In this document: positions 44,190-46,398 of the stretch, piece after piece
Numbering within the stretch: the first letter of the stretch is position 1
Layout: every line of letters begins with the position of its first letter
Assembly: GCF_014207705.1 (NCBI RefSeq)
Contig: NZ_JACHIU010000001.1
Span: 2,596,501-2,660,500 of the forward strand
Source of the DNA: Sphaerisporangium rubeum
Lineage (GTDB): Bacteria > Actinomycetota > Actinomycetes > Streptosporangiales > Streptosporangiaceae
Direction of reading: 5' to 3'
Length of the DNA: 64,000 bases
Translations under genes and position numbers: made by a program
The notes under the pieces: generated by a model
Told to the model about the DNA's origin: nothing
Databases searched by the model: none
What the model saw: only the letters and a program-made list of their open reading frames with translations

Positions 44190-44443
44190 AGGGGATGCGT
44201 CTGGAGACGGCGACCGTGGCACACCGTCCCGGAACCAGCACATAGGAGCGTGTGTGCGGTCGGCCGGTCTCCGGACAACTCTCCGGCCTTTGCCTGCGGG
44301 GCCGGCGGGTCGGTGGAGATCGTGGAGGGTTGGGTGAGGGCCGGCAGATGGAGTGAGGGCCGACGCGGCGCCTGTGGATCGGTGGGCCGCGGGAGTCCTT
44401 GGGTCGGCGTTCAGGGGATGGAGCGCGGTGTCTCTTCGCAAGA

Positions 44444-44488
44444 TGTCAGTTTGTGCTGACACGGAACAGGTGTCAGCTTATGCTGACA
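44444..44488 (+). promoter_or_regulatory. Duplicated operator embedded in the promoter of the HTH/Clp-N operon
   Basis: Two 18-bp palindromes, TGTCAGTTTGTGCTGACA (44444-44461) and TGTCAGCTTATGCTGACA (44471-44488), lie 27 bp apart. The second has perfect 7-base arms. CTGACA of the first (44456-44461) is also the -35 and TATGCT inside the second (44479-44484) the -10, at 17-bp spacing. The ATG at 44492 follows 7 bases later, so the mRNA is leaderless and a bound repressor would block both promoter elements. Confidence 0.8.
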
Positions 44489-44491
44489 CGT

Positions 44492-44740
44492 ATGAGAACG
44501 GCATCGGAACTCGCCGACGCCGCCGACGGACAGGATCCGGCGGCCGGGCTCGCCGCGGTCGCCGCGTTGCGGCGGCTGCTCGAAGAGCTTGAGGCGGTGC
44601 ATGTCAGTGCGGCGCGAGCCCAGGGGTGGTCCTGGGAGGAGATCGCCGCGGCGCTCGGGGTGCGGCGGCAGTCGGCGCACCGCAAGCACGCGCGCCGCGT
44701 GGATCAGGGGTGGATCGAGACTTCGAGGAGCGCACAGTGA
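44492..44740 (+). CDS. Small helix-turn-helix protein partnered with a Clp-N protein
   Basis: This is an 82-residue protein. A helical N-terminal half (ADAADGQDPAAGLAAVAALRR) leads into a helix-turn-helix, GWSWEEIAAALGVRRQSAHRKH, read as helix 2-turn-recognition helix. It overlaps the downstream Clp-N gene by 4 bases. It is the obvious candidate to bind the twin palindromes at its own promoter. Similar HTH/Clp-N gene pairs occur in other actinobacteria, but I know of no experimental role. Confidence 0.8.
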   Translation: MRTASELADAADGQDPAAGLAAVAALRRLLEELEAVHVSAARAQGWSWEEIAAALGVRRQSAHRKHARRVDQGWIETSRSAQ

Positions 44741-45285
44741 CCATGTTCCGGCGGTACACCGCGTCGGCGCACCGCGCCATGGCCCGCGCGGGCCTGCTCA
44801 GCCTGGAGGCGGGCCGCACCGTCCTGGACGAGGACGCGGTGCTGCTCGCGCTCGCCGAGACCCGGCCGTTCGAAGGGCCGCTCGGTGAGTTCTCCCTGGA
44901 CGCCGAGGCGGTCCGCGTGTCGGTCGTCCCACCGGGGGAGGGGGAGTCGCTCGCCGCGCTCGGCATCGACACCGGCCGGGTGCGGCGGCGCATGGCCGGA
45001 CTGTTCCCGGTGGACGACCCGGCGCACTGGCACCTGCGCCGCTCCACCGTCCGGCCGCTGCGGGTCACCCTCTACGGCCCCGTCGGGGAACTCGTCCTCA
45101 CCGCGAGGGCCCGCAAGGTCGTCGAGGTCGCCGCGCACCACGGCGGCACGGTCGTCACCGGCGAGGACCTGCTGCGCGGCCTGCTCGCCGACGGCCGCAA
45201 CCGCTCGATCTCCCTGCTGCGCCACCACGGCGTCCCCCTGCACCCCCTCGCCGCGGCGCTCGGGCTCACGTCCCGCGCCGCGTGA
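44737..45285 (+). CDS. Clp N-terminal-domain protein without ATPase domain
   Basis: This is a 182-residue protein built of two Clp-N repeats. TASAHRAMARAGLLSLEAG with LDEDAVLLALAET is the first half, and LTARARKVVEVAAHHGG with VTGEDLLRGLLADG is the second. No AAA+ ATPase domain follows, so it resembles ClpS/ClpC-N adaptor-like proteins rather than a full ClpC. The GTG at 44737 overlaps the HTH stop and has GAGGAG 6 bases upstream; an ATG at 44743 is possible. It may relay a protein-stress or substrate signal to the HTH partner. Converges on the ligase gene with a 3-bp gap. Confidence 0.8.
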   Translation: MTMFRRYTASAHRAMARAGLLSLEAGRTVLDEDAVLLALAETRPFEGPLGEFSLDAEAVRVSVVPPGEGESLAALGIDTGRVRRRMAGLFPVDDPAHWHLRRSTVRPLRVTLYGPVGELVLTARARKVVEVAAHHGGTVVTGEDLLRGLLADGRNRSISLLRHHGVPLHPLAAALGLTSRAA

Positions 45286-45288
45286 CGG

Positions 45289-46398
45289 TCAGCGGGCCAG
45301 GATGTCGTCCAGGTTGTAGTCCATGGGGCTTTCGAGCTGCGCGTAGGTGCAGGACTCCGGGGTGCGGTCCAGGCGGTAGTGGCGGAACTGGGCCGTGTGG
45401 CGGAAGCGGTTGCCTTCCATGTGGTCGTAGGCGACCTCGATGACCAGCTCGGGACGCAGGGGGATGAACGACAGGTCCTTGGTGGCGTTCCAGCGGGAGA
45501 TGGCGCCTGGCATGCGTTGCGTCGTGCCTTCGGTCTGGGTCATCCAGCCGGCCCAGGGGTGCGCGGACAGGTCGTCGAGGAGGTACGGCTTGAGCTCCTC
45601 GACCAGCTCGGCGCGGCGCTTCATGGGGAAGGACGCCGAGACGCCGACGTGGTGGAGCACGCCGGCGTCGTCGTAGAGGCCGAGCAGCAGGGAGCCGACG
45701 ACGGGACCCGACTTGTGCTCGCGGTAGCCGCAGACCACGACGTCGGCGGTGCGCTCGTGCTTGACCTTGAACATCGTGCGCTTGTCCGGCTCGTACGGCT
45801 TGTCGGTGGGTTTGACGATGATGCCGTCCAGCCCGGCGCCTTCGAACATCTCGAACCACTCACGGGCCCGTTCGTCCACGTCGGTGACCGGGGTCAGCCG
45901 CACCCGGTCACCGGCCCCCGCCATGGCGTCCACCAGACGGGCCCTGCGCTCACCGAACGGCGTCTCCATCAGGTCGAGGTCGCCGACGGCGAGCAGGTCG
46001 AAGCCGATGAACGAGGCGGGTGTCTGCTCCGACAGCAGCAGCACCCGGGACTTGGCCGGGTGGATGCGCTGCTGCAACGTGTCGAAGTCCAGCGCCTGGC
46101 CCTTGCGGACCACGATCTCGCCGTCCACGACGCAGCGCTCGGGAAGCTCGCGCCGCACCGCCTCGACCAGCTCGGGGAAGTACCGGGTGAACGGCCGCTC
46201 GTTGCGGCTGCCGAGGTACACCTCGTCGCCGTCGCGGAACACGATGCACCGGAAACCATCCCATTTGGGCTCGTACAGCAGGTTCCCGTCCTGCGGCGGC
46301 AGCGCCTTGATCGCTTTGGCGAGCATGGGGGCCACCGGCGGCCGGACCGGGAGGTTCATCTCCGGCGGCTGCTCGGGCTGCGGTGCGGGACGGCTCAT
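45289..46398 (-). CDS. ATP-dependent DNA ligase (LigC/LigD ligase type)
   Basis: This is a 369-residue ligase. EPKWDGFR is motif I with the adenylated lysine, VVDGEIVV motif III, GLDGIIVKP motif IV and TMFKVKHERTADVVV motif V plus the start of the OB domain. It is of the LigC type associated with non-homologous end joining. The ATG at 46398 overlaps the stop of the RibD-like gene (ATGA), so it is the second gene of a coupled pair. The frame continues upstream to 46599 only as an overprint. Confidence 0.92.
   Translation of the reverse strand: MSRPAPQPEQPPEMNLPVRPPVAPMLAKAIKALPPQDGNLLYEPKWDGFRCIVFRDGDEVYLGSRNERPFTRYFPELVEAVRRELPERCVVDGEIVVRKGQALDFDTLQQRIHPAKSRVLLLSEQTPASFIGFDLLAVGDLDLMETPFGERRARLVDAMAGAGDRVRLTPVTDVDERAREWFEMFEGAGLDGIIVKPTDKPYEPDKRTMFKVKHERTADVVVCGYREHKSGPVVGSLLLGLYDDAGVLHHVGVSASFPMKRRAELVEELKPYLLDDLSAHPWAGWMTQTEGTTQRMPGAISRWNATKDLSFIPLRPELVIEVAYDHMEGNRFRHTAQFRHYRLDRTPESCTYAQLESPMDYNLDDILAR

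Follow-up and report, generated by a model that had tools for sequence, protein, structure and literature searches.

The 64,000-nucleotide stretch of the Sphaerisporangium rubeum genome analysed here (the window) contains two copies of the palindrome TGTCAG-N6-CTGACA, followed by a small helix-turn-helix (HTH) gene and by a gene for a protein related to Clp N-terminal (ClpN) domains. This raises the questions of what kind of circuit the locus encodes, which of the two proteins reads the palindromes, and to what signal it may respond. The original prediction, made from the sequence alone, had placed the palindromes on the -35 and -10 elements of a promoter, and this is indeed the arrangement observed (Table 1): both copies are exact, with a spacing of 27 bp, and they are overlaid on the single promoter that a promoter scan found in positions 44300-45400 (CTGACA-17-TATGCT, 44456-44484; mean of 0.0 in 50 shuffled sequences). 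Judging by position only, the transcript of the operon would be leaderless. The two genes overlap by 4 nt, and the second one has no ATPase part, also in line with the prediction. A terminator-like stem lies upstream of the operators, at 44407-44426 (one in 44300-45400, for an expectation of 0.2 from shuffled sequences).

Table 1. Features of the HTH-ClpN locus, in window coordinates.
Feature	Position	Strand	Remarks
Distal operator TGTCAGTTTGTGCTGACA	44444..44461		Exact palindrome; right arm is the -35 element; doubled site in 38/39 family relatives
Proximal operator TGTCAGCTTATGCTGACA	44471..44488		Exact palindrome; -10 element inside
-35 element CTGACA	44456..44461	+	Promoter scan; equals right arm of palindrome 1
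-10 element TATGCT	44479..44484	+	Promoter scan; within palindrome 2; start codon 7 nt downstream
HTH gene, 82 aa, ATG start	44492..44740	+	Predicted to act as a dimer and repress its own promoter
Ser61 codon, recognition helix	44672..44674	+	Residue tracking operator base 6
ClpN-only gene, 182 aa, GTG start	44737..45285	+	Degenerate Clp_N repeat present twice, AAA+ module absent; predicted to sense a ligand

When up to two mismatches were allowed, 3 palindrome matches were found in the window for a shuffle mean of 2.0, and 33 of 100 shuffles held at least 3; such matches thus occur at about the level of shuffled sequence, and only the exact, doubled pair is a special feature. In the whole genome of the organism (7.5 Mb) the exact palindrome is present as the window's two copies and nowhere else, and a reversed control pattern gave 0 matches. 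A scan of 30 chosen family genomes, 19 with a ClpN match and 11 without, returned 30 exact sites; on sorting by hand, 24 of them fell at the promoter of the pair itself and 6 at other places. These 6 equal the count of the reversed control (6) and, with no off-pair site in the own genome, no regulon beyond the pair was found in this sample.

Neither window protein, taken alone, gave a Pfam or NCBIfam match above cut-off, the ClpN protein reaching an E-value of 0.82 against Pfam Clp-N. The ClpN family profile aligns with each of the two halves of N domains of the ClpC1 type (best E-value 1.1e-23), which bears out the predicted double Clp-N character, though Pfam alone stays below cut-off. The best Foldseek matches of the predicted ClpN model (pLDDT 92.5) are ClpC N domains, the top four having a probability of 1.00 and TM-scores of 0.50-0.52 (query length); their rmsd is 10.6-11.9 Å, and therefore the whole model superposes poorly on them. 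The C domain of mycobacterial ClpC2 (8AD9) stands at rank 23 of the same list (E-value 1.1e-3). The two-repeat architecture is common to the window protein and the ClpC1 N-terminal domain (3WDB, 3WDC), whereas the lack of an AAA+ module, a longer inter-repeat stretch and a far diverged sequence set the window protein apart from ClpC1. The sole PADLOC match, of the ClpN protein to a Cas6-type entry, was weak (E-value 0.027) and was judged to be due to chance.

For the HTH protein, a broad profile (A3) matched the N domain of ClpC2 (8ADA, residues 4-72) with an E-value of 2.0e-4 and a narrow one (A1) only weakly (0.0091), and A1 picks up the HTH part of fused ClpC2-like genes at E-values of about 1e-6 to 1e-8. 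The ClpC2 dimer salt-bridge residue R57 aligns with R42 of the window HTH, which does not vary across the 34 sequences of A1. RelI (9SDC) is a further sequence relative, with an E-value of 2.1e-4 for the HTH protein alone and 2.5e-7 with the broad profile. A structural comparison of the HTH model yielded many HTH-type chains with Z scores of up to 4.5 and, at 5.4, a designed helical repeat protein; neither 8ADA nor 9SDC was among the 50 matches listed.

The original prediction knew of no description of such a circuit, and on this point it was wrong, since a single-polypeptide version has been published. Mycobacterial ClpC2 (Rv2667; Taylor 2023, PMC10030653) combines a dimerising N domain with a ClpC1-N-like C domain, and is described as repressing its own gene via CGTCAAC-n5-GTTGACG sites. 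These sites, present in duplicate in many species, lie over the putative -35 and -10 elements of what is presumed to be a leaderless promoter. Cyclomarin A relieves this autorepression, and the behaviour of R57A and of C-domain variants supports the need of a dimer for high-affinity DNA binding (PMC10030653). The window shares with this system an HTH-type N part together with a ClpC N-domain homologue without ATPase, as well as two operators over -35 and -10 with the gene start right behind, a leaderless-looking promoter and a self-contained operator. It differs in having two polypeptides instead of one, in its operator (TGTCAG-N6-CTGACA, with a gap of 8 bp rather than 9 between the GTCA and TGAC cores), in the key residue of the HTH part (Ser in the window, Ala in ClpC2), and in a Leu at the Phe80-equivalent position of the ClpN part. 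The window cassette appears to be a split variant of the ClpC2 autorepressor and is not ClpC2 in the strict sense: a circuit type that was already known, found here in a two-gene form with another operator class.

A match to the ClpN protein was present in 41 of 250 family genomes, including the own genome, and 40 loci were examined, counting the window's own and leaving aside one weak match (G201). The palindromes had been predicted to be kept upstream of homologous pairs, and 38 of the 39 other loci do carry two GTCA-N8-TGAC sites, 27-29 bp apart, before the HTH gene (a single core mismatch being tolerated). In the exception (L013) the ClpN gene is present, the first half of the HTH gene is gone and promoter and operator are absent; promoter and HTH start were lost together, either by deletion or through misassembly. 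The named relatives among the matches listed belong to Sphaerisporangium, Nonomuraea, Actinomadura, Planomonospora and Streptosporangium. Sampling of a wider set took in 30 loci among the best matches listed, 100 of 102 further chosen hits, and the best 80 of at least 305 matches. By the family profile, 228 of 233 non-redundant training loci have an adjacent ClpN gene as a split pair, with 0 fused HTH-ClpN genes among these 228; at least two operator sites are found in 211 of the 233 and no site in 6. Single-frame HTH-ClpN genes occur among weaker matches, and there the core gap is nearly always 9 bp, not 8. The own genome has three HTH-ClpN pairs. Besides that of the window, these lie at 6.708 Mb, where the GTCAAC sites are doubled and the ClpN protein is canonical, and at 3.755 Mb. 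A mobile-element origin was considered and rejected, as no relative was found in viral contigs or phages, and the plasmid matches amount to two records of one organism with 40% query coverage.

The patchy presence of the pair, its several copies in the own genome, the overlapping genes and the relationship of the HTH protein to the RelI antitoxin would also suit a toxin-antitoxin module in which the ClpN protein is the toxin and is neutralised by the HTH protein. We consider this very improbable. There is no RelE/BrnT-like toxin at the locus, the partner being a ClpN protein, and we know of no toxic activity of ClpN domains. In addition, fused ClpC2 is reported to protect cells (PMC10030653). 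RelI belongs to the same small HTH family by sequence, but its partner in RelS-RelI is an RNase toxin, and its authors report neither evidence that it binds DNA nor likely regulatory elements upstream of it (PMC13284704), in contrast to the window HTH.

In the recognition helix, the conserved Gln is followed by Ala in the majority of loci and by Ser or Thr in those of the window type. Half-sites are GTCAA in 592 of 628 cases in Ala loci and GTCAG in 211 of 262 in Ser/Thr loci; as the sites were located through a GTCA/TGAC core in which a single mismatch was tolerated, the presence of this core does not count as evidence. Taking the majority of half-sites without the arm that serves as -35, all 220 training loci fit (Ala with GTCAA, Ser/Thr with GTCAG). 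This distal right arm was left out of the rule after Ser loci had been seen often to have A there, and the 220 exclude loci without sites, with a residue other than Ala, Ser or Thr, without ClpN or with a ClpN below 90 aa, together with ties, for example that of the Ser locus L189, where the half-sites read G, C and A. With all arms counted, 214 of 226 loci fit, with 10 ties and 2 misfits (159 A, 1 G and 1 tie in the Ala class; 55 G, 1 A and 9 ties in the Ser/Thr class). At least two GTCAA half-sites are present in 9 of 65 Ser/Thr loci with sites, and at least one GTCAG half-site in 18 of 161 Ala loci. The fused ClpC2-like loci combine QAA with GTCAA half-sites.

The arm left out of the rule coincides with the -35 element. 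A TAnnnT motif at the -10 place is found in 172 of 205 proximal sites versus 27 of 205 distal ones, and A in the distal right arm, which gives TTGAC at -35, in 24 of 32 Ser loci and 6 of 28 Thr loci; the other three arms of the Ser loci have A in 1, 5 and 1 of 32. A rule-breaking -35 arm in Ser loci is the pattern that a site under both operator and -35 demands would show.

The rule was then fixed and applied to held-out loci from a phylum-wide search, 60 further hits having been picked before their sequences were seen. From 84 loci, 8 repeats of training loci and 1 identical row were dropped, and of the remaining 75, 15 had no site and 6 were unscorable; loci L266-L291, seen earlier, stand outside these counts. 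The rule was followed by 53 of the 54 scored loci (Fisher p 1.9e-6), by class 48/48 for Ala and 5/6 for Ser/Thr, the misfit being L321. As 8 of the 54 came from genomes already sampled, the count for the 41 unused genomes is also given: 45 of 46 loci fit (p 4.4e-6). Nine genomes in which both residue classes occur were picked, and in seven of these no listed locus departs from the rule; in G641, 4/4 loci fit by majority, and G769 is the genome with the misfit. The residue switches 5 times on the ClpN tree and 14 times on an HTH tree from which the recognition helix had been left out, and well-supported branches force only 2 independent switches in each, which limits the residue-base claim. In openly licensed PubMed Central papers we found neither the split pair nor a residue-base code of this kind, and the tracking of one operator base by one recognition-helix residue is new here.

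The 2023 paper favours a different part of ClpC2 as the DNA reader, namely a helix of its ClpN-type domain with R185 and R189 (PMC10030653). Applied to the window, the ClpN protein itself would read DNA and the HTH protein would only dimerise, which we find hardly credible, even if the R185A/R189A variant of ClpC2 shows weakened operator binding, which reading by the HTH alone does not directly predict, and expression rises 2.0-fold with its M. smegmatis counterpart (PMC10030653). R57A, in the N domain that corresponds to the HTH, raises expression more, 4.6-fold (PMC10030653). The crystallised N domain (8ADA) had been cut by proteolysis (PMC10030653); its sequence ends in ...GKSMGV, whereas fused relatives continue with TKQAAQKRF or similar, the recognition helix, and therefore the published N-domain structure is without this helix. 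An Arg equivalent to R185 is found in only 7 of 63 Ser/Thr-type ClpN proteins; among Ala-type proteins 138 of 157 have it, as do all 9 fused ones (alignment, with non-fused rows chosen for operator sites and 9 of 12 fused loci recovered). Across 213 HTH and ClpN columns, residue 61 of the HTH alone predicts the operator class with 0 errors, versus 6 for the runner-up, a ClpN column. Furthermore, the rule is followed by 9/9 scored held-out loci marked as being without ClpN, or by seven if L334 and L341, where Pfam finds a ClpN, are set aside, this label being profile-dependent and some such loci having divergent ClpN neighbours. From the residue-base rule, the missing recognition helix in 8ADA and the scarcity of the Arg, we infer that the HTH protein is very probably the reader of the palindromes, as originally predicted, with the ClpN part acting as a putative modulator.

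Alongside the conservation, architecture, promoter overlap and residue-base covariation, which the computation established, a mechanism can be proposed. In our view, the best explanation, in which we have good confidence, is a split ClpC2-type autorepressor cassette with a ligand-released HTH and a decoy ClpN. An HTH dimer would most likely bind both palindromes, cover -35 and -10 and thereby silence the operon that encodes it, which is probably leaderless. The ClpN protein, translated from this mRNA via the overlapping gene, would work with the HTH protein like the two halves of ClpC2, an interaction suggested by the fused homologues, and may offer a ClpC N-domain-like surface to a ClpC-directed ligand. 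Candidates are a peptide natural product, a ClpC binder of phage or cellular origin, and unfolded protein in excess. Occupied by its ligand, it would cause DNA binding to be lost and the operon to be induced, and the ClpN protein that accumulates might, by analogy, act as a decoy that spares ClpC. The residue after the conserved Gln, Ser61 in the window, tracks base 6 of each half-site, and paralogous cassettes of one genome thus have distinct operators.

The sensor role foreseen for the ClpN partner is plausible by analogy with ClpC2, while the signal first suggested, the state of the protease, stays as one option next to the published precedent, in which ClpC2 senses a ClpC-binding peptide antibiotic (PMC10030653). 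Among three natural-product types tested in M. tuberculosis, only the cyclomarin type raised ClpC2 (PMC12913811). In the alignment of the cyclomarin pocket residues Phe96/Phe172 (F2/F80 of ClpC1), the window ClpN keeps the F2-equivalent and has Leu at the F80-equivalent, as do 54 of 63 Ser/Thr-type proteins, whereas Phe occupies this position in 125 of 157 Ala-type proteins and in all 9 fused ones that were recovered. Because Ser/Thr-type ClpN proteins mostly lack this Phe, their ligand probably differs from the cyclomarin type. The same substitution would suit an autorepressor whose ClpN part measures proteolytic load, such as unfolded proteins or free adaptors, and thus acts as a proteostasis switch, and ClpC2 is mildly heat-induced, with a holdase role proposed (PMC10030653). 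We nevertheless think this unlikely, as ClpN diverges faster than HTH (24-64% versus 47-77% identity to the window among relatives), and both this and the three different pairs in the own genome fit different ligands better than one general signal.

The ligand-released split autorepressor may extend further, to a radiated actinobacterial family of insulated ClpN switches, in which one residue (Ala or Ser/Thr) sets one base, quickly evolving ClpN halves with altered ligand pockets report different ClpC attackers and the HTH is the reader throughout, ClpC2 included. We hold this broader reading tentatively, a little short of calling it probable. If true, several cassettes could coexist in a genome without cross-talk, and one mycobacterial circuit would become a widespread sensor family in actinobacteria, of which many produce antibiotics. 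It would also provide a testable residue-to-base recognition rule, correct which part of ClpC2 touches DNA, and make ClpN halves with altered pockets possible natural reporters for new ClpC-targeting compounds.

Some loci depart from the common arrangement. The own-genome pair at 3.755 Mb (L074), together with L175 and L177, represents a third pair type, and the sites of the latter two mix AGCAAC and GTCAAC half-sites. Two further frames of the own genome, at 1.804 and 3.393 Mb, match Clp_N (250 and 237 aa), and for neither of them did the HTH search report a neighbouring HTH gene. The ClpN partners of L166, L171 and L334 carry a C-terminal SRPBCC/polyketide-cyclase-type domain (in L334 with a score just under the Pfam cut-off), and that of L183 resembles them by eye. 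Finally, L267 and L350 have an HTH of the same family and GTCAA-type sites, with ABC exporter genes in place of the ClpN gene.
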